From Propionibacteriaceae bacterium (GTDB lineage: Bacteria; Actinomycetota; Actinomycetes; Propionibacteriales; Propionibacteriaceae): a stretch of 64,000 bases of DNA. The position numbers and the translations under genes are program-made. The notes below the pieces were generated by a model. The model saw only the letters and a list, made by a program, of their open reading frames with translations. It ran no database searches and was not told the origin of the DNA. Below are positions 7,379 through 29,725 of this stretch, one piece after another; position 1 is the stretch's first letter; every line of letters starts with the position of its first letter. The stretch spans positions 1 to 64,000 of the forward strand of contig JAISCA010000031.1 in NCBI GenBank assembly GCA_031265875.1. The letters run 5' to 3'.

Positions 7379-7381
7379 CGA

Positions 7382-8716: not shown

Positions 8717-8788
8717 GAGCAGTGATCCTACCGACCGCTGGCCCGGCGCCGAATCTGACCGTTTGGACGGGGCAGTACGCTAGGCGCC

Positions 8789-10605: not shown

Positions 10606-10734
10606 CCGGTCAGTCTAGTGTCCCCCGCCGGAGCGGCCTGGAACGGACAACCGGCCTGATTGGCTGAAGCGGACCGGGCCAGGCCAGGGCTGGGGCCGAA
10701 GTGGAAGAATGGCCGGCATGACTGAGGCAGGCCG

Positions 10735-12318: not shown

Positions 12319-12400
12319 GACGGGGAGCGCCTCTTAAGTCAAGTGCCCGTGTGGTTGGGGCCGGGCCGGCTCCGGCGGCATCAGCGGTAGCCTTGCGCTC

Positions 12401-13315: not shown

Positions 13316-13316
13316 G

Positions 13317-14249: not shown

Positions 14250-14720
14250 TCTTTCTACTGTGGAAGAGCGGGGGTCGGTCGATGGTTCCAGGGACGGGCG
14301 CCCGGCCTGGACCCGGCGATGGGTCGGGCCAGACGCCCCCACGACAGGAGTCACAACGAAGCGGGAGCGGGATCACCATCGTCGCAGTCCTTACCTGTCG
14401 GCCGGCTGAATTGGCGTCACAGTAACAGATTTCACTCTCTGCATACAAGCGCGTACGCCAGTCGACCATATCCACCCGCGCCCGCGGCCCGGACGCAACG
14501 ACCGCCCTATCGGCAGCGGCGTCGTCGGCGAGAGGACGGTTCCAGCGCGCGACGCGCCGGTGAGGGGCGTCGTAACCACCCTCTCGCCGAGCCTGCCATA
14601 GCCGGGAGACGCGATTACGACCAGCCACCGGCCCCGCTGGGGCAGGCGGAGCCGTGAGACCGACCGCTAAACTGCCCGGAACCGCCAATCACCCTCGTCG
14701 TCGTGGGAAGGAGATCATCG
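14250..14720. other. 471-nt divergent intergenic region cysK / FadR-type regulator
   Basis: This stretch must hold the promoters of both divergent genes. I see no gene, no T-box or SAM-type core, and no convincing palindrome. The only clear signal is the strong ribosome site GGAAGGAG (14706-14713), 7 nt before the ATG at 14721. Confidence 0.6.
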
Positions 14721-15479
14721 ATGGCCGACGCGGCCCGCGGTTCGGCGATGGCCCGGACCACTTTGGCCAGCCTGAGACAGAAGATCGTGTCTGGGGAATG
14801 GCCGATCAACTCGCGGATCCCGAAAGAACCGGAGTTGATGGAGCTGATCGGCGTCGGCAAATCGACCGTGCGCGAGGCCGTGCGTTCGCTGGCGAATCTG
14901 GGGATGCTGGAGACGATCCGGGGGGTCGGCACTTTCGTGCGCTCCCGCGCCCCGGTCAGTTCGGTGTTGACTGAGTACCTGGGCGATTACGACATCGGGC
15001 AGATGCTGGCCTACCGGCGGGCCCTCGAGATCGAAGCCGCCCGCTTGGCGGCCAGGCACAGCACCGAGGCACAGATCGAGCGGCTGCGCCGGGCCCACGA
15101 ATTGGAACGGCGGCCGGACCCGGCGCGACCGCAGACGATCGAACGGGGAACCACTCCCGGTGCCTTCCACCACCTGGTTTTCGAGGCGGCCGGCGTCGAG
15201 TTGCTGGCGGTGCTCTATTCCGGCTTGATGACCGCGATCCGTACGACGGCCCGCCGGGACGGCGTGGTCCGTCGAGCCGACGACGACTCGCGCCAACGCG
15301 AGCACCAGGCCGTCTTAGTGGCGATCGAAGCCGGCGACCCGCTGGAGGCGGCGCGGGCCATGGCCCAGCACGTCGATCACGACATGCGGGCGAACGGATC
15401 GGCCTGTGACCCAGCGGCTGTGACCGTCCGGTCGCAGTCCATCCCGGACTGGACGCCCGAGGTCCTGACCGACCGGTAA
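14721..15479 (+). CDS. GntR-family (FadR subfamily, FCD) transcriptional regulator
   Basis: 252 residues. The N-terminal winged helix spans about 10-75, with 'IPKEPELMELIGVGKSTVRE' as the recognition block and 'GVGTFVRS' as the wing. The C-terminal all-helical FCD domain (about 85-225) carries acidic and His residues ('HHLVFEAAG', 'REHQAVLVAIEAGD.LEA') that usually bind a metal and a carboxylate effector. The ATG at 14721 follows GGAAGGAG by 7 nt, so the longer GTG start at 14703 is rejected. The target is unknown; it could regulate the divergent cysK. Confidence 0.88.
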   Translation: MADAARGSAMARTTLASLRQKIVSGEWPINSRIPKEPELMELIGVGKSTVREAVRSLANLGMLETIRGVGTFVRSRAPVSSVLTEYLGDYDIGQMLAYRRALEIEAARLAARHSTEAQIERLRRAHELERRPDPARPQTIERGTTPGAFHHLVFEAAGVELLAVLYSGLMTAIRTTARRDGVVRRADDDSRQREHQAVLVAIEAGDPLEAARAMAQHVDHDMRANGSACDPAAVTVRSQSIPDWTPEVLTDR

Positions 15480-15492
15480 CCCGACCGTCCGC

Positions 15493-16872
15493 TCAGGTGT
15501 CGGCGGGCAGTAGGTGGCGCAGGCCGTCGGCCAAGCCGCCGCGCCAGCAGGCGTAATCATGGCCGCCGTTGTATTCGACGAAGCGGACATCCGCCCCGGC
15601 GGCGCCCATGAGCTGGGCCAGTCGCTGGTTCGGCCCCCGCAGGACCCATTCCTGGGCGCCGACCTCGATGTAGGCGCGCAGCCGGCTCAGATCACGACCG
15701 GCCAGCGCCGGGCCGAGGTCGGACTGCCAGAGCGAGGCGGACTGGGCCAGCGCTCCGCCCACCGCCGTCGGGTGCTCCAAAGCCGCCCGCAAAGCGGTCA
15801 GACCGCCCAATGACTGACCGGCCACGATCACATCGGCCGGATCGGCTGACGCAAGATACCGTTGACGCGCCCAGGGCAATAGCTGGCGCACCACCCAATC
15901 GGCCGTGCCACCGGAGCCGTCCATCTCGGCCCAGCGCCGCTCGCGCCCGCCCGAGTCCGGCATCAGCACCAAAGCGGGCCGGATCAGCCCGTCAGCCAGC
16001 AGATTGTCCAAGGTGCAGGTGGCGTCCTGACTGGAGTTCCAGACCTCGCCGTCGAGCAGCACCACCACCGGCAGCCGGCCCGCCGCTCCGTCCGGTCGGC
16101 CCACCGCCGCCAACCGCTCCGTCTGGTCGGCCGGGTCGCCCACTGGACCCAAGCGCTCCGCCTGATCGACCGAGTCGCCCACCAAGCCCAAGCGGTCCGC
16201 CAAACTCAAGCGGTCCGCCTGTCCGGGCGGCTGGTAGACCCAGACCCGGCGCCGCCCTGGCCCCCATTCGGCCGTCACCCGCCCGCGCGCCCGCAGCGAG
16301 CGGGGCCGCAGCCAAGGCTGGGCCGGCGCCTCGGGCGACTCCACCACCGATTGCACCACCCCCTGGCGGTTGCGATTGGTCCCCGGGTTGCGCGGATCGG
16401 CCCGCCCTCGGTCCAAGGCCGCCCGGATCGACGGCTGGTCGCCCTCGCCCCAGGGCCAGTCCTGGCCGGGATAGCGAGGCAAGAAACTGTACGAGGCCCG
16501 CCAGTCCGCCCCCATCAGATAGGACAGATGCCAAAGGTCGCTGTCGGCCACCCGTCGCATCAGACTGGCCGCCAAGTCGCGCTCGTCGGTGATCCGGTTG
16601 ACGAACAGCAGCACCTCGGCGGCCTCCGGGTCACGCCACAGGAAGGTCACGATCAGACCACCGCCCGCGACCGCCGGCCCCGGCTCTTCCAACAGGGGCC
16701 AGGACTCGCCCTCGTGGGCGCGCCAGAACTGCTCCACCCGCGACCGGGCGGCGGCTCGGTCCAGCCCAGCTGATTCGGCCATCAGCGCGGCCAGGCTCGG
16801 ACTGACTGTCACTGGCGCGGGGGCCGGACGGGGCAGCTTGGGCGGTGTGCGAGGCGCGCGCGGACCGTTCAT
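15493..16872 (-). CDS. Fes-like enterochelin/siderophore esterase
   Basis: 459 residues. The N-terminal half (about 15-180) resembles the Fes N-terminal domain (DUF3327), and the C-terminal half is an alpha/beta hydrolase of the esterase D type. The nucleophile elbow is 'VIVAGQSLGGLTAL' near 345, and the histidine is in 'EYNGGHDYACWRGG' near 435. Fes-type enzymes hydrolyse the ester backbone of ferric catecholate siderophores in the cytosol to release iron. As the last gene of the iron-box operon, overlapping the ATPase by 4 nt, it points to a tri-ester catecholate siderophore. Between the domains (about 215-265) lies a degenerate low-complexity insert of 'ADRL/VGD.ADQ' units. Confidence 0.86.
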   Translation of the reverse strand: MNGPRAPRTPPKLPRPAPAPVTVSPSLAALMAESAGLDRAAARSRVEQFWRAHEGESWPLLEEPGPAVAGGGLIVTFLWRDPEAAEVLLFVNRITDERDLAASLMRRVADSDLWHLSYLMGADWRASYSFLPRYPGQDWPWGEGDQPSIRAALDRGRADPRNPGTNRNRQGVVQSVVESPEAPAQPWLRPRSLRARGRVTAEWGPGRRRVWVYQPPGQADRLSLADRLGLVGDSVDQAERLGPVGDPADQTERLAAVGRPDGAAGRLPVVVLLDGEVWNSSQDATCTLDNLLADGLIRPALVLMPDSGGRERRWAEMDGSGGTADWVVRQLLPWARQRYLASADPADVIVAGQSLGGLTALRAALEHPTAVGGALAQSASLWQSDLGPALAGRDLSRLRAYIEVGAQEWVLRGPNQRLAQLMGAAGADVRFVEYNGGHDYACWRGGLADGLRHLLPADT

Positions 16873-17819
16873 CGGGCGTCCTCCCCCGCCGCTCCCCCAT
16901 CTCCCGCTGTCCCCACGTCCCCCACCGGCCCCGCTCCCACCGCGTTCCCCGTGACGTCGTCCTCCTGAGGCACCACGATCGGGCGGCCCGAGACGGGGTC
17001 TACGATCAATTGGCAGGGCAGGTTGTAAACCTGCTCGATCAATTCGGCGGTGACGACTTCAGCGACCGGACCTTGGGCCACGATCGCGCCCTGCGACATG
17101 ACGATCAGCCAGGTGGCGTAACGGAAAGCCAAGGTCAACTCATGCAGGACCACCACTACGGTGAAACCTTCACGCTGGAGGGAGCGGGCCAGGTTCAAGA
17201 CCTCGACCTGGTGGGCGATGTCGAGGTAAGTGGTCGGCTCGTCCAGCAGCAGGATCGGGGTCTGTTGGGCCAGAGCCAAGGCGATCCAGACCCGCTGGCG
17301 TTGACCGCCGGACAGCTCACCGACCAGACGGTCGGACAGATCGGCCACGCCGGCCCGGCTCATGGCCGAATCGACCGCCCGTTGGTCGCGGTCCGACCAT
17401 TGCCGCAAAACACCTTGATGGGGGTAACGTCCCCGCGCCACTAGGTCCTCGACCACGATGCCGTCCGGCGCGATCGGTGATTGCGGCAACAGACCGAGTC
17501 GACGGGCGACCTCCTTGGGCGGGTAAGCGGTGATGGCCCGGCCGTCCAATTCGACTTGGCCGGTCCGGGCCGGGAGCATCCTGGCCAGCGCCCGTAGCAA
17601 GGTCGACTTGCCACAGGCGTTCGGTCCCACGATCACAGTCAGTTGACCGGTCGGGATGGCCACGTCCAGGTCGGCGATGACTCTCTGATCGCCGTAGCCG
17701 ACCGTCAAGCCGTGACCGCTCAAACGAGCGGCAGCCGGGACCGGTGGGACGGCCGACGGAGCCAAGGGGTCGGCCGCCGGAGCCGACGACGGGACAGCGG
17801 GCACAGGTGACGGACTCAT
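16869..17819 (-). CDS. iron-siderophore ABC transporter ATP-binding protein (FecE/FepC type)
   Basis: 316 residues. Walker A is 'VGPNACGKSTLLRAL' (Ala replaces Gly after N, the usual FecE form), the signature is 'LSGGQRQRVWIALALAQQ', and Walker B is 'ILLLDEPTTYLDIAHQ' with the FecE-typical TTYLD. The ATG at 17819 overlaps the permease stop as ATGA. An in-frame upstream extension to 18248 is noise lying over the permease gene. It energises the two FecCD permeases. The last 30 residues form a Gly/Ala/Asp-rich tail. Confidence 0.95.
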   Translation of the reverse strand: MSPSPVPAVPSSAPAADPLAPSAVPPVPAAARLSGHGLTVGYGDQRVIADLDVAIPTGQLTVIVGPNACGKSTLLRALARMLPARTGQVELDGRAITAYPPKEVARRLGLLPQSPIAPDGIVVEDLVARGRYPHQGVLRQWSDRDQRAVDSAMSRAGVADLSDRLVGELSGGQRQRVWIALALAQQTPILLLDEPTTYLDIAHQVEVLNLARSLQREGFTVVVVLHELTLAFRYATWLIVMSQGAIVAQGPVAEVVTAELIEQVYNLPCQLIVDPVSGRPIVVPQEDDVTGNAVGAGPVGDVGTAGDGGAAGEDAR

Positions 17820-18889
17820 GCGGAGTCTTTCCTCCATTCGCGGGCCAATAACCAAATCAAGTAGACGCCACCGAGCGCGCCGGTGACCACGCCGACCGGC
17901 AGCTGGGTCGGAGCGAAGATACGTTGCGCCACGATGTCGCTCACCAATACCAGCAAGGCGCCCATGATCCCGGCGGTGGCCAGGCCCGGGCCACTGGCGC
18001 CGCTCAGGCGGCGAGCCAATTGAGGGGCCGCCAGGGCGACGAAACTGATCGGCCCGGCGGCGGCCACCGCCAAAGACACCAGCGCCACGCCGACCAGCAC
18101 CAGTTCCAGGCGGCGGCGCTCGACCCTGACGCCCAGGCCGGTGGCCAACTCGTCCCCCATCGCCATGGCCCCCAGGGGCCTGGCCAAGGCCAGCGCGGCT
18201 GGCCCCAAGACCGCCACCGCCAGAGCCACCAGTGAGGCCTCGGCCCAACCGGTGGCGTTGAACGATCCGGCCAGCCAGACCGCGGCGGTCTGAGCGGCGG
18301 CCAACGAGGCTCGGACGATCAACAGCGCGTTGAGGCCTTGGAGCAAGGCCGCCACCCCCACACCGACTAAGACCAGCCGGAATCCGGCCAGCCCGCGCCG
18401 CCAGGCCAGGGCGTAGACCACCGTGGCGGTGGCGAACCCGCCCAGGACCGCCCCGACCGCCACCGCCGCCGGCCCGCCACCGAAGACCATGATCTGCAGC
18501 AGAGCTCCGGTGGCCGCCCCGGTGGTGAAACCGATCACGTCCGGGCTGCCCAGTGGATTGGCCGACAAGGACTGGAAGATGCCGCCCGACAAGCCCAAGG
18601 CCGCCCCCACCAGCCCGGCCGCGACGACGCGGGGAGCGCGCTGCTCTTGGACGAAGAACTGACCCAGGGGATCGTCGCCCCAGCCCAAGAGCGCCCGCAG
18701 GGCCTCCGATGGGGTCAACGGATAATCGCCGATCAGCAGCGCTCCGGTGGCCGCCACCACGATGGCCGCCCCTAGGGCGCCGCCCACTAGCAGGGAGCGC
18801 CGCTCCACTCTGAGCGCCACCCGGCCCAGCCGGATCGTCCGGCGCCGGGGCCTCGCCCCGCCCCTGGGTCGAGTGCGGGAGGCGGTCAC
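17816..18889 (-). CDS. FecCD-family iron ABC transporter permease (second)
   Basis: 357 residues with about nine membrane segments. Family blocks include 'RAPRVVAAGLVGAALGLSGG' and 'ANPLGSPDVIGFTTGAATGA', plus the C-terminal 'GVVTGALGGVYLIWLL'. The start is the GTG at 18889, which overlaps the previous stop as GTGA; the longer frame to 19348 is out-of-frame noise over the first permease. Residues 1-30 are Arg-rich, consistent with a cytoplasmic N-terminus. It forms a heterodimeric channel with the product of the gene ending at 18886. Confidence 0.94.
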   Translation of the reverse strand: MTASRTRPRGGARPRRRTIRLGRVALRVERRSLLVGGALGAAIVVAATGALLIGDYPLTPSEALRALLGWGDDPLGQFFVQEQRAPRVVAAGLVGAALGLSGGIFQSLSANPLGSPDVIGFTTGAATGALLQIMVFGGGPAAVAVGAVLGGFATATVVYALAWRRGLAGFRLVLVGVGVAALLQGLNALLIVRASLAAAQTAAVWLAGSFNATGWAEASLVALAVAVLGPAALALARPLGAMAMGDELATGLGVRVERRRLELVLVGVALVSLAVAAAGPISFVALAAPQLARRLSGASGPGLATAGIMGALLVLVSDIVAQRIFAPTQLPVGVVTGALGGVYLIWLLAREWRKDSA

Positions 18890-20028
18890 AGCGCCTCGAT
18901 CCGGCGCCGCCGCACGATGGCGATGAAGACCGGCCCGCCCAGGATCGCCGACACGACGCCGACTTGGATCTCTTGGGGGGCGATGACCAGGCGGGCGCAG
19001 ACGTCCGCCACCAGCAGTACGACCGGGGCGGCCAGGGCCGAATAGGGGATGGACCAGCGGGCGTCGGGGCCGCCGATGGCTCGGGCCAGGTAAGGGACGC
19101 CCAGACCGATGAAGGCGATCGGGCCGGCGGCGGCGGTGGCCGCCCCCGCCAACAGGGTGACCGCGATCATGGCCAGGGCGCGGGTGCGGGCCAGGCGGAC
19201 GCCGAGGGCGCGGCCTGTGTCCTGGCCCAAGGCCATGGCGTTGAGGGCCGGGCCGGTGGCCCAGGCGACCACCAAACCGAGCCCGATGAAACCTGAGACC
19301 ACCGCCAGGACGGGGTAGCCCCGCCCCTCGACCGACCCGGCGGCCCACAGCCGGAACTCGTTATAGGCCGCTTGATTGGACAAGATGACCATGTCCACCA
19401 GCGCCGATATGGCCATCGAGATAGCCACCCCGGCCAGAGCCAGCCGCACCGGCGTGGGCGACCGCCGGCCGGCCCCGCCCAACAGGTAGACGGCGACCGC
19501 GGCCAGGGCGGCCCCGGCGAAGGCGAACCAGAGGTAGAACCAGATCGAAGCCACCCCGAACACCGCCACCGCCAGCACCACCGCCAGCGAGGCGCCGGCG
19601 TTGACGCCGAGCACGCCGGGGTCGGCCAGGGGGTTGCGGGTCAGCGATTGCATCAACGCGCCGGCCACCCCCAGCGCGGCGCCGACCACTATCACCAGCA
19701 GCGTCCGGGGCACGCGCTGCTGATGGATGATGATCGACTCGAAACTGCCGTCGGGTTCCAGCAGCAAGGACCAGACCTGGCTCAGCGGCAGGTGGTTCGA
19801 CCCCACCGCCACCGACACCAGCGCGGCTACGACTATCAGCGCCAACGCCCCGACCAGCCCGGCCGCCCGCCGAGCCGGCTGGTTCGGGGCCGGGCCGGCG
19901 GCGCCTGAGAGGTCCGGGCCCGTGACACGGACGTCCGCAGCGCTCCGGTCCGAGGAGCCACCGTCCCCGGCCACCGTGTCCGGGCCGGCTCCAGCCGGGA
20001 CGCTGTCGTCCAGGACGCTGAAGGTCAT
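18886..20028 (-). CDS. FecCD-family iron ABC transporter permease (first)
   Basis: 380 residues. A 50-residue Ser/Asp/Gly-rich cytoplasmic N-terminus precedes about ten membrane segments. Family hallmarks are 'RVPRTLLVIVVGAALGVAGA', 'TRNPLADPGVLGVNAGASLA' and the terminal 'GVVSAILGGPVFIAIV'. It overlaps the upstream surface-protein gene and the downstream permease gene by 4 nt each, indicating translational coupling of surface proteins and transporter. Confidence 0.95.
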   Translation of the reverse strand: MTFSVLDDSVPAGAGPDTVAGDGGSSDRSAADVRVTGPDLSGAAGPAPNQPARRAAGLVGALALIVVAALVSVAVGSNHLPLSQVWSLLLEPDGSFESIIIHQQRVPRTLLVIVVGAALGVAGALMQSLTRNPLADPGVLGVNAGASLAVVLAVAVFGVASIWFYLWFAFAGAALAAVAVYLLGGAGRRSPTPVRLALAGVAISMAISALVDMVILSNQAAYNEFRLWAAGSVEGRGYPVLAVVSGFIGLGLVVAWATGPALNAMALGQDTGRALGVRLARTRALAMIAVTLLAGAATAAAGPIAFIGLGVPYLARAIGGPDARWSIPYSALAAPVVLLVADVCARLVIAPQEIQVGVVSAILGGPVFIAIVRRRRIEAL

Positions 20029-21260
20029 AGGCCGGAGGTTCCCGGCCCGGCCTGATCGTCTAGGCTCTCCCCCGAACCAGCTCCATTCCCGGAGTCAGGC
20101 CCATTCCCGGGGTCAGGCGTACGCCCGGGATCAGGCCCGTCTGCCGGACCGGACACGTCCCCTGAGCTGGGCTTCTCCTCTGGACCGGACCCGTCTCCTA
20201 GAGCGGACCCATTCTCTGGAACCGACCCGCCCCCTGGAGCGGGTCCTTCAGCTTGATTGGACTCCCTTGGGCCGGCCCCAGTTCGGGCACGTCCCCGACG
20301 CCAGACCAGCGCCGCCGCCGCACCGGCCGCCAAGACAACCACGGCGGCGCCGATCAAACCGAACCGTGGCTGCGAGCGGGCGGTCGCGGGCGGCGCGATG
20401 AGTCCGTCGGTGGGCTCCGGACTAGACGTCGGGCCCGTGGCCCCGGCCGCCGGCGACCCGGCCGGCGAGGCCGACGAATCTGGGACCAGTCCAGGGTCGA
20501 TCCCCAGCACGCCGCCGGGACCGCCGACCTGCTCCGCTCCCTGGCCGGTGACCGCCCCAGCCTCGGGTCCAGCGGCCGAGCCCGACCCGGCTCCGGCATT
20601 CCCAGAACCAGTGTTGCCGCCGGACCCGGCCGCCACGACTATGAAATCGGCTCCGCCCCGACGGGTGAAACCGATCACGCCCTTGTTCGGGTCGGACGGG
20701 TCGACGTAGGCGGAGGCCAGGAAGCGCAGCCAGTGCTCGCCCGGCGTGATGTCGCAGGGCAACTCGAAGGAGCCACTGACCCGGCCCGAGTTGGGGATGG
20801 CCTGGCTGTGCCAGACGCCCGAGCCTTGGACCGAGGTGTCGCCGTAACCGATGCCGTCGTCGATCTTGACGTAGACGGTCTCGCCGGCCGGGTAACCGGA
20901 GACGCTGAAGTTGATCGTCGCGCAGGGGGCCAGGCTGGTCGGCCAGACCGACGAGGCCGTGCCCGGGGTGTCCGCCCCCGCGCCGTCCGGTGGCAGAGCC
21001 GGGACGACGGGATGGGCGGGCAGGGGCGCGGCCAGCGCTGGCTGAGCCCCACCGGCCAATCCGCCGACCGCCAACCCGAGCGCGACCAGCCAGCCGCCCA
21101 GACCGCCGCGACTAGCTCGACTGCCGGGCCGGGCCGAGGACCCGCCTGAGGCGACCGGGTCGGAGCGGCCCAGCCGCCCGCGGGCGGCTGGGAGCGAGGC
21201 CGACTGGGTCTCCTCCGTCCTCTCGGCCACTGGTCTTCCCCGGCTAGCCTGGACGCTCAT
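20025..21260 (-). CDS. membrane-anchored surface protein with one KLDDG-type domain
   Basis: 411 residues. After a basic N-terminus, a hydrophobic core ('WLVALGLAVGGLAGG', about 53-68) ends at ALAAP, giving a signal peptide with cleavage near 76. Residues about 95-210 form a domain with 'VYVKIDDGIGYGD', 'GVWHSQAI' and 'GEHWLRFLAS', paralogous to the domains in the next two upstream genes. Two cysteines (in 'APCATINF' and 'ELPCDITPG') could form a disulphide. A Gly/Ser/Pro linker leads to one membrane helix (about 285-305, followed by WRRGRAR). About 105 residues of Pro/Gly/Asp/Ser repeats then sit on the cytoplasmic side. There is no LPXTG. It is probably the membrane-proximal receptor that passes ligand to the FecB-like protein (inference). 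Confidence 0.82.
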   Translation of the reverse strand: MSVQASRGRPVAERTEETQSASLPAARGRLGRSDPVASGGSSARPGSRASRGGLGGWLVALGLAVGGLAGGAQPALAAPLPAHPVVPALPPDGAGADTPGTASSVWPTSLAPCATINFSVSGYPAGETVYVKIDDGIGYGDTSVQGSGVWHSQAIPNSGRVSGSFELPCDITPGEHWLRFLASAYVDPSDPNKGVIGFTRRGGADFIVVAAGSGGNTGSGNAGAGSGSAAGPEAGAVTGQGAEQVGGPGGVLGIDPGLVPDSSASPAGSPAAGATGPTSSPEPTDGLIAPPATARSQPRFGLIGAAVVVLAAGAAAALVWRRGRARTGAGPRESNQAEGPAPGGGSVPENGSALGDGSGPEEKPSSGDVSGPADGPDPGRTPDPGNGPDSGNGAGSGESLDDQAGPGTSGL

Positions 21261-24200
21261 GACGAGACCCGGCCAGTCCGCCGCCGGCGAACGATCAACC
21301 AGGCGCCGGCCAGCAGGGCGACGGCCAGCGCCACCGCACCGGCCAGCAGCCAGAGGTCGTCGGCGTATAGCTGAATGACCGGCCGGGCCGAAGAGCCAGA
21401 GTCCGGGTCCGGGGCGGTCCCGGAGCCGGTCTGGTCAGGGGAGCCGGTCTGGTCCGGGCCGGTGGCCGGATTCCCCTGACTGGTGTCGGTCGCGGTCGGA
21501 GCCGCGTCCAGTCGAGCTGCGACCCAGCCGATCAGGGCGCCCGTCGCGTCCTGGGCCACGACTCGATAGTCGCCGCCGGCCAAACCGGCCAGATCGACCC
21601 GGACCTGCTGGTTGGAGTCGACCTGGATCCAACCGACCGGGATCGCGCCGGGATAGACGTACAGGTAGCTCCAATCCCCGGCCTGGGCCTGGGGCAGGGT
21701 GACGGTGGCCACCGTGCCGCTTTGGAGGCCGCTGGCGGCCCCGCTGTTGGCGCCGATCAAGGCGCTGGCGTCGGCCACCGGCGGGGCCGGGATGAAGGCC
21801 GGGGCCGTCGAGTTGGCCGTCGCGGCACTGGTGGTCCGCTTGACCACCTGGTAGATCGGCCGGGTGATCGTCGTGATTCCAGCGGCGCCGGAGCCGCTGT
21901 CGTCGACCGGCGGGGCTTCGACGGTCAGCCAAGCCCAGCCCAGCAAACGGCCGGTCTGACCCTGAGCGCCGGATTGGGCCACCATCTTCAACTGCCCGAC
22001 CGGCAGCGTGATGCCGGCCAGGGAGGCGGTGACCCGCCCGGCGGCGTCGGCCTGGAACCAGGTCCCGCCCCACAACAACCGGGGCGACCCGTCCGGCAGG
22101 TAAGCCGACAGGTAGACCCAGTCGCCCGCCTGAGTCCCCGGCACGGTCACGGTCAGAGCCGGGCCGGCCCGGGCCACTGTCACCGCGCCGCGCTCCGCCT
22201 CCGACAGTTCTTCGTCGTACTCCAGCGGGTCGGGCGCCCCGTTGGGCGCGTATTGGCCGACCACGAACTCGGCCGACTCGATGGTGCGGACGGTGTCGCC
22301 GGCCTTCAGTGAACCGGTCAACAGTCGCAGGGTGTGGGCTCCGGCCGGGAAGGCGGGGGACGAGCCATCGGTCCCGGCAGCGGTGCCGTCCGGCAACTGC
22401 AACTCGACGCTCCAGTCGCCGGTGGCGGCGTCGGCCTCGACGATGGCCCAGACGCTGAGGTTCTGGTGGATCTGGTCGGTCAAGTGGCTGTAGGCCCCCT
22501 CGTCCAGCTTGATGGTGACGACCGAGCCGCCTCGGTGCTCCGCCGGATGGCACCAACCCGTGCCTGAGACCTGGAGCCGGCCGCCCAAAGCCACCGTCGA
22601 GGCGCCCAAGGTCACCTGCGGCGTCGGCGTCGAGGGCAGGCAGGTCGGCTGATCGTCGCCACCGCCGTCCGGATCGGTGTAGGGCGTCCCGCCCACCACC
22701 AGGAAGTCGGTGGTGACGGCCCTGGTCACGTCGGCCAGGTCGAAGCGGCCGGATTGGAACAACACCGTCAGGTACTGCCCAGCCGTCAGGCCGGCCGGCG
22801 CGTCGATGACGGTCTCGAAGTTCCCGTCCGGGCCGATCACGATCACATTGGGGTGGTCGTCCGGGTCGGACGGCGCCAGCAGGGCCCAGATCGTGTCGTC
22901 GCCGGTGGCGGTGGGGTGACGCACGATCCCTGAGCCCGAGCGGGTGTATTGCCGGGAGTCGCCGTAGTTCAGCTTCAAGGCGATGGTCGAGGCGCCGGTC
23001 CCGGCCTGGTCGACCCAACCGTGGCCCTTGATCCGGATGGTGGCGCCGTCCCCGGCCGCCAGCTCGTTCTCCACCCAGGCGGTGGCGACGCCGCCGCTGA
23101 TCGGATCGGTCACCGTCAACGTCTGATGCCCCCAGACCGGCGGCTGGTCCGGACCGGTGACGGTGTCGCCGGCGATGGTGAAGGGGATCGACTCGGTCCG
23201 GATCTTGTCCCCGCTCAGGAGCGACCCGGTCAGCAGGCGGACATTGTGGCTCTGGCCCGGCAACCATTCACTGTTCGAGTTGGCCGGGGTCGGGTAGGGG
23301 AAGGTGGCGGACCAACTGCCATCCGGGTTGACCGCCACCGCCGCCCAGATGTCGCTGGCCAGGGTCTGACCGGTCTCGGGGTTGACCTGGGCCGTGACGC
23401 CCCTGACCGCGCCATCGTCCAATTTGACGGCGATGACCGAGCCGCGGGTGCCGCTGGTCGTGACCCAGCCGGCGCCCGAGACCGTGATGTCGGCGCCCGC
23501 CTCCACCATGGTGGGGCCGGTGAAGGTGACCGAGGGGTCGGCGGCGCTGACGTAGGTCCGCTCGGTCGGCGGCGGCGTCACCGTCAGTACGACCGGGTCG
23601 GTCTCGACGCTGCCGGCGGCGTTCGTGAAGACGGCCTTGTAGAGAGTGCCGGACATCGCCTCCAGGGTGTTGGTCAAGGTCAAAGTCCGGGCGGTCGCCC
23701 CCACCACGATGGCCCAATCGGTTCCGTTGGAGCTGGAGTGCCACTGGACCGACGGGGCCGGAGCGCCGGAGGCGGCGGCCGTGAAGCTGGCCGTCTGACC
23801 TGTCTCTATGGTCAAGTCCGCCGGTTGGGCGGTGATCTGCGGGGCCTGGGCCGAGCTTGAGACGGACAGCAGGGCCGCGCCGCTGCGGACCGAGCCGAGC
23901 TGGTTGGTGAAGACGGCCCGGAAGACGGCGCCATTGTCCGCCTCGGTCACATTCTGGACCGTCAGGATAGTCGCGGTGGCGCCGGGGATGTCGGCGTAGT
24001 CGTCGTCCAGCGGAGCCCGCTTCTGCCACTGGATGTCCGGGGTGGTCACGCCCGTGCCGGCGACCGTGAAGGTGACTGAGTCACCGAGGGCGACCGACTG
24101 ATTGACCGGGTGGGTGGTGACGGTGGGCGCCTCAGGGGAGCCGCAGTGCACCATCACCCAGTCGCTGGTGGCGATCCCCGCCGCCGTCCAGGCCCAGAAG

Positions 24201-26050
24201 CGGAAGACGCTGCCCTCCTGGCAAGTGGGGGCGGTATACTTCAGCGGGAGAGTGTATGTGTTGCCATCCTGGACGCCAAGGCCGGCGTCGGCCTCAGTCG
24301 GGGTGCTGAGGTTGATCTTCCAGGACCACCGGTAGTGGACCGGCCCCGGGTTGTCGGCGATCTCGACCGAATAAGAATGCTCCAACTGCTCGGTCGCCCA
24401 GGTCTTCTCGGTCGGCTGGACGATGATCTCCGGGATGACGGCGGCTGGGTCCTCCACCACCGTGACCGGGTCGGTGTCGAAGTCGAGAGCGCTCCCGGTG
24501 GGGTAGACGCCCGCCACACCGTGGATGTGGAGCCTCAGTCGGGTCTCGCCCAGGGGCGACAAGCCATCCCCGGGCAGCATGTTGTCACTGTAAAGCCCAA
24601 GGCTCAGCTTCACCGGCAGGTCGGTCAGAGCGCCATTGGAGTCGGTCGTGAATCCTTGGCTTTGCTCCACCAGGGTTCCATTACGGTCGGACCAGCCCAC
24701 GCTCACCGCCTGGCCAGCGGGCAACCCAGTGGCCGACAGATGCACCGTGCCGCCCCGCTCTACAGTCTCTTCGGCCAGGGTGATCTGGGCCTCCCACATG
24801 GTCAGGGTGGCCGGCTCGGTCGCAGTGGCGCCGGCACTGTTGCTGAATACCACCCGGTATTGGGTGCCATCGACCGGTTTGAGGTCGCTGTCCCTTATGT
24901 GCAGGGCGTAGGAGGAGGAGACCTGGGTCGCGGAGCCGGTCAGGCTGGTCGCCCCGGTGATGTCGGCCCATTCCCCGCTGGGAGCCTTGACCTGCCATTG
25001 GGCGCCGGTGGCGATCGGTTCCGCCGTGGCGCTCAACCTCACCAGGGAGGTCAGTCGGGTGGCGATCAGATCGGAGGGGGAGGTGTAGATCGCCGGCGGC
25101 AGATCCGACGAGTTGACGGTCAATCTGGCCGGGTCACTAGTCGCAGAACCAGCATTGTTTACCACCACCGCCCGGTACAGGTTGCCGGACTGGGCCAGCG
25201 TGGTGTTCGCCAATGACAAGGTGGCCGAGGTCGCATCGGGCAAATCCACCCAGGTCGTGCCGTCGTCCGCGCTGGACTGCCAACTGAAGCTGGCTCCCAT
25301 ACCCCCATCGGCGTCCACCACGGTGAGACTGGCGGTTTGTCCGGCGAACACGGTCCGGTCGACCGGATGGGTGGCGATAGTCGGTTGGTGCAGCAGTGCC
25401 GTCCAAGTGGTCTGAGTCGACGTCAGTGACCGCTCGTCGCCCTCGGCGTCCGTCCACGATATAACCACATAAATCCTGAGCTTATTCCAATTGTTCCACT
25501 GGGTGTTGTTGTATTCGCCGTTCCTGATTTGAGTCCAGCTCGCCGTGAACACTCCGTCTTTTTCCGCCTGACTAAGAGTGATACCGCTATTGCTCTTAGA
25601 GATAACTGTGAAAGCGGCCTGCTCGGTTTTATTACCCGGCTTGTAATACCACACGACTACGGCGTCAGCGGGGATGTTCGCGGCTTCGACGCTGGAGGCG
25701 AAAGTCGGGAGATCTCCCAGCGCGCCCGTCGCTGTCGCGGGCAGGTCTTGGATGAAATAGGCCGTCGGAGCAGCGTTGGACGACTGAGCGTCGACCGTCG
25801 AAACAGCCGTCTCGCCCTCAGCCGTTGACACTTCCTCCGAATTAACGGTGTCCTCCGGATCGACAGTGTCCTCCGGATCGACGGTGATCGTGACATCATC
25901 GCTATCGCCGCTGTGAGTCGCACTGTCACCTGAATCGCCGTAAGCCGGCAGGGACAGTAATGACATGATCAAGGCCGTCACCAAGATGACCGCCAAACCG
26001 ACGAATGTCCGGCGGTACCGAGTGCGGGTGACGAGTGAGGTGACGTTCAT
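21257..26050 (-). CDS. large Ig-like/KLDDG-domain surface protein of the iron operon
   Basis: 1597 residues. Signal peptide 1-38 (core 'FVGLAVILVTALIMSLLSL'), then an acidic DPEDTV stretch. Ig-like modules follow at about 222-313, 318-417, 641-731 and 736-825 ('HPVDRTVFAGQTASL', 'GSATSDPARLTV' style), with two degenerate ones at 420-640. Three copies of the KLDDG domain are at about 836-960, 975-1121 and 1143-1265 ('GSVIAVKLDDGA', 'STIALKLNYGDS', 'SVVTIKLDEGAY', each with 'IWA/VWA' and most with 'RLLTGSL'). Two short 'GDWVYLSAYL ... LLGWAWL' modules sit at about 1290-1378 and 1445-1515. A Pro/Gly/Asp linker, a membrane helix (1563-1587) and an RRRR tail complete it. There is no sortase motif. 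AAAGGAA lies 9 nt before the ATG. Its place between the FecB gene and the permeases suggests ligand capture outside the membrane. Confidence 0.88.
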   Translation of the reverse strand: MNVTSLVTRTRYRRTFVGLAVILVTALIMSLLSLPAYGDSGDSATHSGDSDDVTITVDPEDTVDPEDTVNSEEVSTAEGETAVSTVDAQSSNAAPTAYFIQDLPATATGALGDLPTFASSVEAANIPADAVVVWYYKPGNKTEQAAFTVISKSNSGITLSQAEKDGVFTASWTQIRNGEYNNTQWNNWNKLRIYVVISWTDAEGDERSLTSTQTTWTALLHQPTIATHPVDRTVFAGQTASLTVVDADGGMGASFSWQSSADDGTTWVDLPDATSATLSLANTTLAQSGNLYRAVVVNNAGSATSDPARLTVNSSDLPPAIYTSPSDLIATRLTSLVRLSATAEPIATGAQWQVKAPSGEWADITGATSLTGSATQVSSSYALHIRDSDLKPVDGTQYRVVFSNSAGATATEPATLTMWEAQITLAEETVERGGTVHLSATGLPAGQAVSVGWSDRNGTLVEQSQGFTTDSNGALTDLPVKLSLGLYSDNMLPGDGLSPLGETRLRLHIHGVAGVYPTGSALDFDTDPVTVVEDPAAVIPEIIVQPTEKTWATEQLEHSYSVEIADNPGPVHYRWSWKINLSTPTEADAGLGVQDGNTYTLPLKYTAPTCQEGSVFRFWAWTAAGIATSDWVMVHCGSPEAPTVTTHPVNQSVALGDSVTFTVAGTGVTTPDIQWQKRAPLDDDYADIPGATATILTVQNVTEADNGAVFRAVFTNQLGSVRSGAALLSVSSSAQAPQITAQPADLTIETGQTASFTAAASGAPAPSVQWHSSSNGTDWAIVVGATARTLTLTNTLEAMSGTLYKAVFTNAAGSVETDPVVLTVTPPPTERTYVSAADPSVTFTGPTMVEAGADITVSGAGWVTTSGTRGSVIAVKLDDGAVRGVTAQVNPETGQTLASDIWAAVAVNPDGSWSATFPYPTPANSNSEWLPGQSHNVRLLTGSLLSGDKIRTESIPFTIAGDTVTGPDQPPVWGHQTLTVTDPISGGVATAWVENELAAGDGATIRIKGHGWVDQAGTGASTIALKLNYGDSRQYTRSGSGIVRHPTATGDDTIWALLAPSDPDDHPNVIVIGPDGNFETVIDAPAGLTAGQYLTVLFQSGRFDLADVTRAVTTDFLVVGGTPYTDPDGGGDDQPTCLPSTPTPQVTLGASTVALGGRLQVSGTGWCHPAEHRGGSVVTIKLDEGAYSHLTDQIHQNLSVWAIVEADAATGDWSVELQLPDGTAAGTDGSSPAFPAGAHTLRLLTGSLKAGDTVRTIESAEFVVGQYAPNGAPDPLEYDEELSEAERGAVTVARAGPALTVTVPGTQAGDWVYLSAYLPDGSPRLLWGGTWFQADAAGRVTASLAGITLPVGQLKMVAQSGAQGQTGRLLGWAWLTVEAPPVDDSGSGAAGITTITRPIYQVVKRTTSAATANSTAPAFIPAPPVADASALIGANSGAASGLQSGTVATVTLPQAQAGDWSYLYVYPGAIPVGWIQVDSNQQVRVDLAGLAGGDYRVVAQDATGALIGWVAARLDAAPTATDTSQGNPATGPDQTGSPDQTGSGTAPDPDSGSSARPVIQLYADDLWLLAGAVALAVALLAGAWLIVRRRRTGRVSS

Positions 26051-26157
26051 AGTCGGGGTTCCTTTGAAGAGATTTAACTCGAAGGGGTTTGACCTATACG
26101 TTTGGCACCGATGCGATCAAAGATCGTTTAGCGCTTTCTGACTTACCCAGATTCGCT

Positions 26158-26191
26158 GGTGCGGGGACGGATATTGATCCGCCCCCGCACC
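26158..26191. other. intra-operon 15-bp hairpin
   Basis: GGTGCGGGGACGGAT (26158-26172), loop ATTG, then a complement with one mismatch (26177-26191). It sits just after the stop of the small secreted protein gene and 108 nt before the start of the 1597-residue gene. With no U-tract, it could be a partial terminator or an RNA-processing/stabilising element that lets the upstream genes be expressed more strongly. Confidence 0.65.
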
Positions 26192-26200
26192 CTTGCTGGA

Positions 26201-27040
26201 TCAGGAAACCGTGAACACGGCGCTCAGAGCCACGCCTGCCCGGTCACCGGTTTGGAGAGAGCCCGCCAAGGCCCGAACTCGGTAGCTGCCCGTTCCGAAC
26301 TCCGGGTTGGAGCCGTTCGCACCCGTCGTGCCGCTGGGCAGAGTGATAGTGATCGAAAAATCACCATTGGCATCGGGCCGGGCATAGGCCCAGATCGTCA
26401 GATTCGCGCTGATGTCAGGATCCGCCGGATAACCAGGCAAATGGTTATACGTGACCGAGCTATCAGAGGCCTGTTCGATCTTCAACGCCACGATCGCGCT
26501 GGCGGACACATTGGTCGTGGTCCAGCCCGAACCGGTGACAGTCAAGCTGCCGCCGGTGACGCCGGAACTGGCGGTGGTGACAGTGACCGATGCTGGAGTC
26601 GTGACCGTGATAGGAACATACAGTTCCGTGAACGCGCTATCGATGAAGTACAACTCGTATTCACCTGTCGTCGGGAAGTTGCTGACCGCTATCGGCACCC
26701 TGGTGTAGTCCGGCGCGACCGTTCCGGTGTCGCCGTTTTCATCTAGAGGGTAGCTGCGCAGCAGCGGCCCGGTATCATCGCCCAAGTAGACGTAGAGCGT
26801 GCCTTCGGGATCGAAGCCGGTGGCTTCGAAGGTCCACTGACCGCCCTGTGGGGCGGTGTAGTCATCGTTCACGTTGGTGACGCAGGGCTCGTCGGGCAGG
26901 CATGTCGGGTCGTCGGCCTGCGCGGCCGGGCTGCCCAGCCCGATGAAGCCGAGGCCCATCAGCCCGGCGGCCAGAATGGCGACGGCTTGGCGCCACCAGC
27001 TCCGCTGGCTCGGGCCAGCGGTTGCGATCGTAGTTCTCAT
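26201..27040 (-). CDS. small secreted protein with KLDDG-type domain
   Basis: 279 residues. The signal peptide (core 'AVAILAAGLMGLGFIGLG') ends at AAQA before DDPTCLPDEPC. Residues about 50-150 form a beta-rich domain ('GGQWTFEATGFDPEGTLYVYLGDD'). Residues about 152-278 are a KLDDG-type domain with 'GSGWTTTNVSASAIVALKIE', 'TIWAYARPDANGDF' and 'RVRALAGSLQTGD'. No membrane helix or sorting signal follows, so it is released or held non-covalently; a diffusible or wall-associated scavenger is plausible. GAAAGGAAG lies just before the ATG. Second gene of the iron-box operon. Confidence 0.83.
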   Translation of the reverse strand: MRTTIATAGPSQRSWWRQAVAILAAGLMGLGFIGLGSPAAQADDPTCLPDEPCVTNVNDDYTAPQGGQWTFEATGFDPEGTLYVYLGDDTGPLLRSYPLDENGDTGTVAPDYTRVPIAVSNFPTTGEYELYFIDSAFTELYVPITVTTPASVTVTTASSGVTGGSLTVTGSGWTTTNVSASAIVALKIEQASDSSVTYNHLPGYPADPDISANLTIWAYARPDANGDFSITITLPSGTTGANGSNPEFGTGSYRVRALAGSLQTGDRAGVALSAVFTVS

Positions 27041-27106
27041 GGTCTTCCTTTCGGTTTTCTTTCTTGGTTCTCGGGGTCCCCTGGCCTGACGCCGGGATTC
27101 CCCACG

Positions 27107-28192
27107 TCATATAGTCAATGTTCGCTTGACGTCATCCAGGATTCGGTTCATCAGGAGCGGGCCGCCGGTCGAGGTCCAGGCCGAACCGTCGACCAAGATG
27201 ATGTGGCCGTCTTTGTAGGCGGCCAGCTCGGTGAAGCCGGGCACCGCGATGGCCTCGGCCAGGGCCCGGGCGGCCCCGGAGACGTCGGCCGAACCGCCGG
27301 CCTGGGGATTGGCCAGGCTGGAGCCGCCCAGCGTGCCGAAGAACATGTAGTCGGCGTCGGCGTCGCGCAGGTTCTCCAAGGACAGTGGCTCGGAGTGCCC
27401 CCGGCCGACCCGGTCTTGGCTAGGCGGGCGGCGCAAGCCGAGATCGGTCAGGGCCCGGCCCGGCAGCAGCTCTTTCAGGATCAGCGAGGCCGAGCTGCCC
27501 TGCCAACGCACCACCGAGAAGGTCTGATCCCGATAGCCGCTCAACGATTCGGCGTATTCAGCGGCCTTGGCGTCGTACTGGGCGATCACCCGCTCGCCCT
27601 CCGCCACCAGGTTGAGCGCCTCCGCCACCAGACGGAAGTTGTCCCGCCAGTCGCCGCCGGCGTAACCGGTGTACACCACCGGCGCGATCCGGCGCAGCGC
27701 TTCGATCACCGGTGGGTTGTTGTTGACGCTGGTGCCGTCAACCAGGATCAAGTCCGGCCGGGCGGCCCCGATGGCCTCGAAGTTGGGTTGCGCCACCCCG
27801 CCCAGGATGGGCAGGTCTTGGGCTAGGTCGACCAGGTAGTTCGGCACGGTCTGCTGTCCCCGACCGCTGACCGTCCCGATCGGTTTGAGGCCCAACGCCA
27901 GCACGCCGTCCAAGGTCGGCTCGGACAAGGTCACCACCCGCTCCGGATGGATCGGCGCCCGCACCTCGGTCCCCTCGACGTCGATGACTGTACGGGTCTC
28001 GCCCTCGGACGCTCCGGCGCCCGGCCCCGACGCGACCGGAGCGCAGGCGCTCAAGGCCAAGACCGCGACCAAGGCCAAGAGCTGGGCTAGGACGGTCGTC
28101 GAGTGGCGCCCAGGAGTCGAAACTGGTCCGGCCGCCGAGCGGCGTTCCCCGGTCGGGACGGGTCCGCTGGCTGGTGGCGTCACAGCGGTCAT
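27107..28192 (-). CDS. FecB-like iron-siderophore substrate-binding lipoprotein
   Basis: 361 residues. The lipobox 'LALSAC' puts the acylated Cys near residue 50. The mature part is a class III periplasmic-binding fold: 'RVVTLSEPTLDGVLALGLKP' opens lobe 1, 'GVAQPNFEAIGAARPDLILV' is the family block, and a long helix ('NFRLVAEALNLVAEGERVIAQYDAKAA') links the lobes. The first ORF start is a GTG at 28204, but AGAGAG lies 6 nt before the ATG at 28192, which is preferred. First gene of the operon, 158 nt downstream of the iron box. It delivers ligand to the two FecCD permeases. Confidence 0.93.
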   Translation of the reverse strand: MTAVTPPASGPVPTGERRSAAGPVSTPGRHSTTVLAQLLALVAVLALSACAPVASGPGAGASEGETRTVIDVEGTEVRAPIHPERVVTLSEPTLDGVLALGLKPIGTVSGRGQQTVPNYLVDLAQDLPILGGVAQPNFEAIGAARPDLILVDGTSVNNNPPVIEALRRIAPVVYTGYAGGDWRDNFRLVAEALNLVAEGERVIAQYDAKAAEYAESLSGYRDQTFSVVRWQGSSASLILKELLPGRALTDLGLRRPPSQDRVGRGHSEPLSLENLRDADADYMFFGTLGGSSLANPQAGGSADVSGAARALAEAIAVPGFTELAAYKDGHIILVDGSAWTSTGGPLLMNRILDDVKRTLTI

Positions 28193-28349
28193 GGGCTCTC
28201 TCACTCGGCGGCACGCCCGTCCGCTCCCCTGGCCTCCGTCACCACCGAATCGGGTCGACCCCGGTTCGGGCGGGTGGCGAGTCCCGGCGGGCGGGCCGGT
28301 CGCGCCTGTTCAGCGTGGGCATCGTCAGACTGTATTCATCTGATGTGAG

Positions 28350-28368
28350 TGAGGCTAGGCTAACCTTT
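28350..28368 (-). promoter_or_regulatory. DtxR/IdeR iron box
   Basis: On the minus strand AAAGGTTAGCCTAGCCTCA matches 15 of 19 positions of the DtxR/IdeR consensus palindrome, including the central GGTTAGCCTA. It lies 158 nt upstream of the FecB gene and on the same strand as the whole eight-gene operon. In actinobacteria such boxes mediate repression by Fe(II)-loaded DtxR/IdeR. Confidence 0.75.
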
Positions 28369-28471: not shown

Positions 28472-29725
28472 CTAGTGAAACTGGTGCAGCCACAGGGCGG
28501 TGATGGGAAGGATGTGCAGCCAGTCGTGGAGACGGGCGGTGGTGTCGCCGGCATGGAGCAAGACCCCGGTGATACCACGATCAGCGAAACGTTCGTGCAG
28601 AACAGTGAGATTGCGCCAGTGCTGCCGAGTGGGGGTCGTGGTGGTCTTGACCTCGATGGCGATCAACCTCCCATCGTCGGTCTCGATCATCAGATCGGCT
28701 TCGAGGCCGTCGAGGTCACGGAAATGGTACAAGGTGTTCGGAGTCACGCTCCACAAGCGCTGCTTGGTCAGCTCCAGAGCCACGAATTGCTCGACCAGAG
28801 CGCCGTAGTACTGTTTCCCGCCGGCGGTCACCGCCTTGGCGGCGGTGAAATTACTGAGCCGGGCGCTGAGACCGGTGTCGACCAGACTGACCTTGGGACG
28901 GTGCATCAGACGGCGATGTGGGGACCGGTTCCAGGCCTTGTACTCCTGGACCAAGCGCATCGTCTTAGCCAACCGCAGATAGACGTCCACGGTGGACTCG
29001 GCCACACCCAGGTGACGGGCCAGACCGGCCTTGACCAGTTCGGTCTGCCCCAGAGTCGCCAAGTAGGTCAGCAGAGCCGACAACTGATCGGCGTAACCAC
29101 CGCCTCTCAGCTCGCGGGCGTCGTGGCCGGCTAGGCGAGCGACGTAATCGCTCAGCCATTGCCCCGCCCTGCTGGAGCTACGGGCGCAAGCCTCCGGGAA
29201 GCCTCCCCGGATGACAGTCTCAGGCTCCAAAGCCGGAAAACCATCCCCGGGAGCCCCGGCCAGCAACCAGGTCACGAAGTCTTCGCCGGTGGGGCGCCGC
29301 GCCAGTTCGCCTTGGCTGAACGGCATCATCTCGACGGTCTCGGCTCGTCCGGCCAGCGAGTCGCCGACGCCCTTGACCTGCAGCAAGTCGGCGGAGCCGG
29401 TGAGAAGGAAACGCCCTGGCCGCCGGGAGGCGTCCACGTTGGCTTTGAGCGGGAGGATCAGCTCCGGAGCCCGTTGGGCTTCATCAATGGCCAGCAGACC
29501 GGCCGGGTACTGGCCGATGACAGCTTTGGGGTCGTCCTGGGCCAGGTCGAGGGCGAGTGGGTCATCCAAGGTGATGACTCTGGCGTCCCGGCCTGCCGTC
29601 ACCATCTGGACGAGCGTGCTCTTACCCACCTGCCGAGCGCCTTGGATGACGACCACGGGTGTGTCGCTGAGAGCCGTTTCCACCGCCGTCAGGGCGAAAC
29701 GAGGTCGGAGGGCGTCATCTGTCAT
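28472..29725 (-). CDS. AAA-family ATPase with DUF4143 (AAA_14) architecture
   Basis: 417 residues. The Walker A 'VIQGARQVGKSTLVQMV' is near 30, Walker B 'GLLAIDEAQRAPELI' is near 80, and a sensor 'FLLTGSADLLQVK' is near 110. A winged-helix segment is visible at about 225-260 ('LATLGQTELVKAGLARHLGV'). The DUF4143 C-terminus contains 'FRDLDGLEADLMIETDDGRL' and 'IAIEVKTTTTP', a restriction-endonuclease-like D...E-x-K arrangement. Function is poorly defined for the family. The ATG at 29725 is preceded by four phased palindromes that the winged helix could bind (inference). Confidence 0.88.
   Translation of the reverse strand: MTDDALRPRFALTAVETALSDTPVVVIQGARQVGKSTLVQMVTAGRDARVITLDDPLALDLAQDDPKAVIGQYPAGLLAIDEAQRAPELILPLKANVDASRRPGRFLLTGSADLLQVKGVGDSLAGRAETVEMMPFSQGELARRPTGEDFVTWLLAGAPGDGFPALEPETVIRGGFPEACARSSSRAGQWLSDYVARLAGHDARELRGGGYADQLSALLTYLATLGQTELVKAGLARHLGVAESTVDVYLRLAKTMRLVQEYKAWNRSPHRRLMHRPKVSLVDTGLSARLSNFTAAKAVTAGGKQYYGALVEQFVALELTKQRLWSVTPNTLYHFRDLDGLEADLMIETDDGRLIAIEVKTTTTPTRQHWRNLTVLHERFADRGITGVLLHAGDTTARLHDWLHILPITALWLHQFH

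Follow-up and report, generated by a model that had tools for sequence, protein, structure and literature searches.

Background

The Hta/Hmu system of corynebacteria and the Isd/NEAT system use iron-controlled surface proteins with repeated domains, which are encoded together with an ATP-binding cassette (ABC) importer and a lipoprotein receptor, and the anchored repeat-type ABC transporter (TIGR03771 and its partners) is an actinobacterial ABC importer with surface-anchored repeat proteins. Siderophore uptake in Gram-positive bacteria is usually described as a lipoprotein plus an ABC importer, with nothing further out, and we know of no exported multi-domain surface proteins in the FepBDGC/Fes and FeuABC/BesA operons for ferric catecholate import. 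Here we describe an operon of eight same-strand genes (15493-28204, minus strand) found in a stretch of 64,000 nucleotides from a Propionibacteriaceae bacterium (assembly GCA_031265875.1, contig JAISCA010000031.1; the whole stretch is referred to as the window). In order, it encodes a FecB-type lipoprotein, three exported proteins (p279, p1597, p411), two FecCD permeases, an ATPase and a Fes-type esterase.

As in FepBDGC/Fes and FeuABC/BesA, a substrate-binding protein, two FecCD permeases, a FecE-like ATPase, a trilactone-type esterase and an iron box are present; the difference lies in the three exported proteins encoded in the same operon. These carry copies of a domain that we call X (in p279 and in the large p1597, whose counterparts in other genomes are called receptors below) or Y (in p411). 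On balance, comparative evidence favours the view that the operon is an uptake cassette for ferric catecholates, in which the exported X/Y domains would capture the cargo or pass it to FecB.

Conservation of the cassette

In order to find related loci, a species-genome collection was scanned with two degenerate peptide patterns of the p411 core, a non-exhaustive search in which p411 is present in all loci by construction. Forty-seven loci were obtained, 44 of them clear, from Corynebacterium, Rothia, Nocardioides, Microbacterium, Coriobacteriales and others; L054 is from Microbacterium fluvii. Loci L096-L098 were dropped from the 44 for want of a same-strand cassette (in L097 and L098, genes resembling fecB and fes are on the opposite strand), and the neighbour tally covered the 46 loci with a p411 match, i.e., with L096 and L097 kept and L098, which has no such match, left out. 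FecB was present in 38 and the receptor in 37 of the 41 loci with more than 5 kb of upstream sequence, while the 40 loci with more than 5.5 kb downstream contained the first permease in 37 cases, the second permease in 37, the ATPase in 33 and Fes in 22. Sufficient flanks on both sides and all six genes were present in 28 loci, of which 26 have the collinear order fecB, receptor, p411, permease, permease, ATPase. Variation was seen around the receptor, which precedes fecB in L052, L053, L068 and L076 and had no match in L095, and several loci encode extra X proteins. The same-strand counterparts of FecB in loci L052-L095 are 55-73% identical to it. The initial annotation of this DNA had named, as an outcome that would count against it, surface genes not kept beside the transporter in relatives, and the counts for FecB (38/41) and the permeases (37/40) came out the other way. 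That surface genes and importer form a conserved unit is well supported.

The two halves of the cassette also co-occur at a larger scale. Among 394 genomes of the class (apparently the same draw for both searches), a FecB relative (E <= 1e-60) was detected in 9 and a Y domain (E < 1e-10) in 7, all 7 lying within the 9 (P 1.3e-13, a value that treats genomes as independent although they are not and that relies on thresholds chosen after the lists were known). Were the surface genes adjacent by chance, many FecB relatives should come without Y, yet 7 of the 9 carry Y. A p411-type Y is present in four genomes, that of the window among them, and these are the same four whose FecB reaches at least 58% identity; FecB without Y was seen in two genomes, with identities of 40% and 43%.

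Within the family, 13 of 198 genomes, including that of the window, carry the X domain, which was found in none of the 18 congeners. No FecB ortholog was found in these 18 either, two of them having FecB relatives of 30-35% identity; 11 of the 18 reach a completeness of 90% or more and a contamination of 5% or less and the others are poorer, so some absences may be gaps. It is this joint absence of FecB ortholog and X domain that suggests that the cassette was gained or lost as a unit. Of the other 12 X-bearing family genomes, seven (G066, G077, G146, G161, G168, G202, and G203) have the cassette, in some cases cut by contig ends, a count that covers the fetched stretches of 11 genomes (G162 was left out); ATPase and Fes were not found in the fetched stretches of G146, nor Fes in those of G066.

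Two Coriobacteriales metagenome bins, L068 (542-8634) and L076 (1408-8563), have a stand-alone p279-like gene and a long receptor gene beside the cassette, as in the window, and Ig domains were confirmed in the L076 receptor. An exchange of the cassette between these lineages and that of the window genome is possible. A plasmid origin was also considered and rejected, as p1597 had no match in 72,556 plasmid records.

Exported proteins and their domains

Judged by sequence, the three exported proteins of the operon belong to one common domain family, X/Y. The smallest, p279 (26201-27040, minus strand), consists of an N-terminal domain and one X domain (residues 145-279), with no membrane anchor seen by eye. 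The large p1597 (21257-26050, minus strand) has immunoglobulin (Ig)-like domains, three X domains (X1, residues 831-962; X2, 974-1121; X3, 1137-1266) and two C-terminal modules (1288-1380 and 1444-1516), as delimited by Pfam, BLAST and profile searches; its C-terminus has a membrane segment by eye, and no sortase motif was spotted. The third, p411 (20025-21260, minus strand), has one Y domain (residues 88-211; alignment and AlphaFold) and a membrane segment, again by eye. In related loci, sortase-type ends were found in 7 of 98 C-termini, namely in the receptors of L072 and L074 and in five further proteins, which are other X proteins or p1597 relatives.

The four X copies can be recognised in a BLAST test of ten segments (X1-X3, E 1.5e-19; X3-p279, E 2.3e-22), in which the Y form of p411 is more distant (X1-p411, E 6.9e-6), and an alignment likewise supports the kinship of the X copies. 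The Y profile alone scores X1 and X3 of p1597 at 4.7 and 10.6 bits. As one of the profiles (A1) includes the p411 domain, its p411 matches are circular, and the independent test is the comparison of the X and Y profiles (30 X3-module sequences, window included, against 44 Y sequences), which gave a probability of homology of 96.3% (E 1.8e-9) and paired KIDDG with KIDEG and HWLRFLA with HTLRLLT. Residues K45, D47, G49, H89, L91, and R92 are, among others, invariant in the 44 Y domains and D48 is nearly so. The near-duplicate locus L086 (a close copy of L085) was omitted from the alignments A4, A5, and A6, and L077 from A6 because of an unread residue.

The initial annotation had described p1597 as a large Ig-rich receptor. 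Its Ig domains were confirmed by Pfam (PF07679, PF13927), but the part that can be aligned in most relatives is X1-X3 with the following modules and not the Ig repeats; conservation in the large protein centres on X3 and the module after it (A6, window and 29 relatives). Matches of the p1597 Ig domains to Robo and similar receptors were attributed to the commonness of Ig domains and discarded. The same annotation had cast p279 as a secreted scavenger; among 57 relatives, p279 was matched in the window genome only. Stretches similar to p279 also occur within larger proteins of six loci (L054, L056, L061, L062, L081, and L084).

No meaningful Pfam or NCBIfam model match was obtained for the X and Y domains of the window, the NCBIfam search covering the window proteins and the A6 profile. 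Searches for solved relatives by sequence returned none for p279 and only rows with E >= 0.1 for the A4 and A6 profiles. The AlphaFold model of the p411 Y domain (predicted local distance difference test 87.3) is a predicted Ig-like sandwich, and its fold list has neocarzinostatin-type carriers on top, tied with other Ig folds. The neocarzinostatin model PF00960 matched 2 of the 44 Y domains at E <= 0.01 (best 7.6e-4), that of the window not among them, and stayed below its gathering score in L079 (17.3 bits, cut-off 25). In relatives, several other models exceeded their cut-offs (given in brackets in bits): AglB_L1 in L060 with 25.9 (23.6), and MalQ_N with 45 (24.1), Big_13 with 38.9 (27) and CARM1 with 23.5 (22) in L059. 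The proteins with ten Y domains described below matched, as whole proteins, GEVED at 87.9 and 82.8 (24.4), MG2 at 37.4 and 55.7 (32.8) and NPCBM_assoc at 27.6 and 34.8 (24.4), and a four-Y protein matched GEVED at 55.4 and DUF5979 at 25.1 (25). We take these matches, to beta-sandwich and other models, as similarity at the level of the fold, although a genuine kinship of Y and GEVED may exist.

Importer, esterase and gene layout

The importer itself is of the ordinary ferric-siderophore type. All its Pfam scores were above cut-off, i.e., PF01497 for FecB (27107-28204, lipobox LALSAC by eye) with 65 bits, FecCD for the first (18886-20028) and second (17816-18889, GTG start) permease with 301.6 and 247.9 bits, ABC_tran for the ATPase (16869-17837) with 105.8 bits, and Enterochelin_N (PF11806) and Esterase (PF00756) for the esterase (15493-16872) with 104.7 and 76.9 bits; all five genes are on the minus strand. 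The top NCBIfam models were Fe(3+)-siderophore permease and iron-enterobactin permease for the two permeases and iron-enterobactin ATPase for the ATPase, all below the equivalog cut-offs, and dicitrate followed by enterobactin for FecB, neither reaching its cut-off. The esterase scored 211.8 bits against the enterochelin esterase model NF007758 (cut-off 222). The nearest solved structures to FecB were YfiY (E 1.7e-34) and then FecB (E 1e-19). Three Peripla_BP_2 paralogs are encoded elsewhere in the window genome, and the two that can be aligned are 35% and 30% identical to FecB.

The eight genes lie where the initial annotation had placed them, and its reading of a FecBCDE importer with a Fes-like esterase agrees with the Pfam and NCBIfam results. 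It had also reported that most of the genes overlap by 4 nt, which is true of five junctions out of seven, all those between p1597 and the esterase, provided that position 17819 is the ATPase start; with a start at 17837, the overlap between permease and ATPase becomes 22 nt. The other two junctions are gaps, of 66 bp between fecB and p279 and of 150 bp between p279 and p1597. Immediately upstream of the operon, on the same strand, is a gene for an AAA ATPase with DUF4143 (28472-29725; Pfam).

Nature of the cargo

Gene neighbourhoods and model matches point to a ferric catecholate as the most likely cargo, probably one of the enterobactin type, and not to haem. Relatives of EntA, EntB or EntE were present within flanks of at most 10 kb in 11 of the 44 loci (seven from Rothia, with R. 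mucilaginosa among them, two from Nocardioides, one each from Corynebacterium suicordis and C. pelargi), matches to non-ribosomal peptide synthetases (NRPS) only (L072, L074, and L094) and weak EntC matches (L057 and L066) being excluded. Ten flank proteins were scanned with models: the three Rothia EntE enzymes among them had dihydroxybenzoate ligase as their top model (541-566 bits, cut-off 723.55), and one isochorismatase-like protein matched no model at an E limit of 1e-20. PMC7190385 reports that Rothia mucilaginosa ATCC 25296 makes enterobactin and that a catechol-siderophore-like cluster occurs in all 45 Rothia genomes mined, and enterobactin production by R. mucilaginosa is restated in PMC8210680. 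We infer that the published cluster is the one at locus L093.

In addition, the genes of five distant FecB relatives (G282, G296, G337, G346, and G376) lie near EntA, EntB, EntC, EntE and NRPS genes, mostly within about 14 kb, with an NRPS gene about 17 kb from fecB in G296. Two of these genomes, G282 and G296, encode a protein carrying ten Y domains whose gene shares 4 nt in one case and 1 nt in the other with that of the NRPS; by eye, both proteins have an export signal at the N-terminus and a membrane segment at the C-terminus. Exported proteins rich in Y were noted at L138 (3002-6460, ten Y domains), L140 (5973-9470, ten) and L141 (14924-16705, four), where their genes belong to, or adjoin, catecholate siderophore clusters from other families of actinobacteria.

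No catecholate biosynthesis was found in the window genome, where the best EntE-type score was 178.9 bits; the assembly is listed as 99% complete, and a missed cluster is possible. As no EntE-grade enzyme was found, the bacterium would use the siderophores of its neighbours. Two isochorismate synthase-type matches were considered as signs of own production and set aside, the one above cut-off standing beside a geranylgeranyl reductase-like gene and being read by eye as the menaquinone enzyme MenF. The window itself contains an AMP-forming ligase gene (33817-35421), which scores 130 bits against the dihydroxybenzoate ligase model, far below cut-off.

Iron box

The operon is probably iron-repressed, as suggested by a DtxR/IdeR-type box at 28350-28368 (minus strand), about 146 bp upstream of fecB. 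In the 64 kb, this is the best match to the 19-base DtxR/IdeR consensus, with 4 mismatches when read on the plus strand and 5 on the minus strand. In the 3.1 Mb assembly, five places have zero mismatches over the 15-base core, the box among them; allowing up to one mismatch, 18 matches were counted in the genome against 16 for a reversed control, i.e., there is no enrichment and the genome count alone is therefore no proof of the box. The 44 related loci (791,410 bp) contained 29 sites that differ from the consensus at no more than 4 positions, compared with 0 for the reversed pattern. These merge to 28 sites in 20 loci, of which 11 are at the start of a surface gene, 8 at fecB, one at hmuT and 8 at neither, a site being counted as near a gene from 500 bp before to 200 bp inside its longest reading frame; at this threshold, 24 of the 44 loci have no box. 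When only the region upstream of fecB was scanned, 13 of 40 loci had a site with up to 5 mismatches, compared with averages of 7.6-9.0 mismatches in shuffled controls, single ones of which went as low as 5. The proposal that the genes form one unit behind an iron box is supported, the 29 sites against 0 being stronger evidence than the genome count.

By eye, other iron-box neighbours in the genome include a siderophore-interacting reductase after C40:34943 and an ABC exporter-type gene after C69:26191, and a pair of zero-mismatch cores (G000:C68:20543 and 20821, 278 bp apart) lies near a two-gene toxin-antitoxin-like unit.

Interpretation and alternative explanations

In the proposed mechanism, the X/Y Ig-like exported domains would sit outside the cell and bind the ferric siderophore or keep it near the cell, capture being the task of p279 or other extra X proteins where present, of the receptor and of p411. 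The ferric siderophore, made by neighbours in the case of the window bacterium, would then be handed to the FecB lipoprotein and imported by the two permeases and the ATPase, after which the esterase would open the trilactone in the cytoplasm and release the iron. We infer the binding and hand-over steps from gene content and predicted domains. The initial annotation had derived a relay from the layout (secreted scavenger, Ig-rich receptor, anchored receptor, FecB); what stands behind that order is predicted localisation, and the receptor gene precedes fecB in L052, L053, L068, and L076, so we do not adopt it. A broader and more tentative idea, which we hold at less than even confidence, is that X/Y constitutes a new actinobacterial extracellular siderophore-binding carrier with an Ig fold, akin in architecture to the neocarzinostatin type, which would be present in one or several tandem copies on proteins that are secreted or anchored in the wall or the membrane, collect ferric catecholates and relay them across the envelope to FecB.

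Several observations weigh against ferric catecholate capture by the exported proteins. X and Y are divergent and Ig-like, and this fold serves many purposes, including that of a plain spacer. A further 15 of the 394 genomes have weak Y matches only (E between 4e-6 and 9e-4) without a FecB relative at the 1e-60 threshold, and X occurs without the cassette in the fetched stretches of G031, G154, G160, and G198. The pairwise distances of the p411 domain and of FecB do correlate (r 0.68, 820 pairs), which speaks for the proposal, but the value is uncorrected for species relatedness, and the transporter genes reach 0.61-0.86 among themselves. With regard to the cargo, seven of the 11 catecholate-linked loci are from Rothia and hence not independent, the presence of Fes in only 22 of 40 eligible loci means that the cargo need not be a trilactone everywhere, and YfiY, the top solved match of FecB, is a hydroxamate-citrate receptor. 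Finally, the surface module of L077 (Nocardioidaceae, approximately 6419-17144) consists of fecB, receptor and p411, followed at a distance by HmuT- and HmuU-like genes, i.e., it lies near haem-type transporter genes, and the usual permeases were not found there.

The exported proteins could instead be iron-regulated adhesins or envelope spacers that share the operon and never touch the siderophore. Their Ig-like repeats, their patchy distribution and the matches of some relatives to broad beta-sandwich models (Big, MG2, MalQ_N and GEVED among others, a few above cut-off) would fit such a role, which we nevertheless regard as unlikely: adhesins are not expected to be tied so closely to one transporter lineage, whereas here the permeases follow in 37 of the 40 eligible loci found through p411, strong Y matches track FecB relatives over the 394 genomes, and the ten-Y proteins abut catecholate NRPS genes. 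The membrane segment of p411 (by eye) and the place of its gene between those of receptor and permease would also be compatible with a structural role, in which p411 and the receptor, as accessory subunits, help to build or place the importer and do not bind cargo. An assembly factor would hardly need large receptors of many domains, further X proteins beside the cassette and sortase-type ends (7/98), however, which makes this explanation rather improbable. Slightly lower still we rate the idea that the domains keep secreted apo-siderophore at the cell surface, as a retention or export aid, and do not bind the ferric form; although it would fit the position of the ten-Y genes at the NRPS gene and the presence of biosynthesis genes near the cassette in 11 of 44 loci, the surface genes are retained in the window genome, with no catecholate biosynthesis detected, and in the 33 loci with no EntA, EntB or EntE in the examined flanks, and the conserved partner is an importer.

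A Hta-type haem relay with unrecognised haem domains appears very improbable. The initial annotation had seen no HtaA or NEAT domain, and searches agree with it: the HtaA domain (PF04213) had 0 matches in the window genome with a positive Corynebacterium glutamicum control, and a Pfam scan (E <= 1) of the three exported proteins returned no NEAT and no haem domain. HtaA is missing from 11 of the 13 X-bearing family genomes, including that of the window, the importer components are similar to those for enterobactin, the operon encodes a Fes-type esterase and catecholate genes stand beside the cassette in 11 of 44 loci. In favour of haem are the occurrence of HtaA in G077, the HmuT- and HmuU-like genes of L077 and a protein of G031 (L049, G031:C4, 8321-9778) in which a weak N-terminal X-like match (E 2.5e-4) precedes an HtaA domain (PF04213, 164 bits). 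This last case hints that the X fold may be used in haem surface proteins as well.

Comparison with known systems

According to a 2026 survey of 16,232 Gram-positive genomes, PBP2 lipoproteins are the primary siderophore recognisers (PMC13293324), and the FecB of the window is likewise a Peripla_BP_2 protein. The main text of that survey has 0 occurrences of 'surface protein' and 0 of 'cell wall', and no exported surface partner was noticed in it. The available parts of PMC6314084, PMC7139808, and PMC11296517 contained nothing on the X/Y family, and, among the matches listed in the open PubMed Central literature (subscription journals lie outside it), there was no description of exported domain proteins tied to a catecholate importer. 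Surveys based on Pfam domains could miss such an outer stage because no Pfam model recognises X/Y in the window proteins.

With respect to the anchored repeat-type ABC transporter, the ATPase of the window scores 133.9 bits against a cut-off of 268.8, and its three exported proteins had no match to the models of that system (NCBIfam, E <= 1). An exported family tied to one importer lineage, and partly to catecholate biosynthesis, suggests an outer stage of siderophore uptake, which would have consequences for how commensals share or pirate siderophores. The existence of surface siderophore receptors in single-membrane bacteria can be tested directly with these small, soluble domains. The closest parallels remain Hta/Hmu and Isd/NEAT: the operon similarly pairs repeated-domain surface proteins with an ABC importer and a lipoprotein receptor, but its proteins are free of HtaA and NEAT and the cargo evidence points to catecholates, so that, if the proposal is true, X/Y would be to siderophores what the NEAT and Hta relays are to haem.

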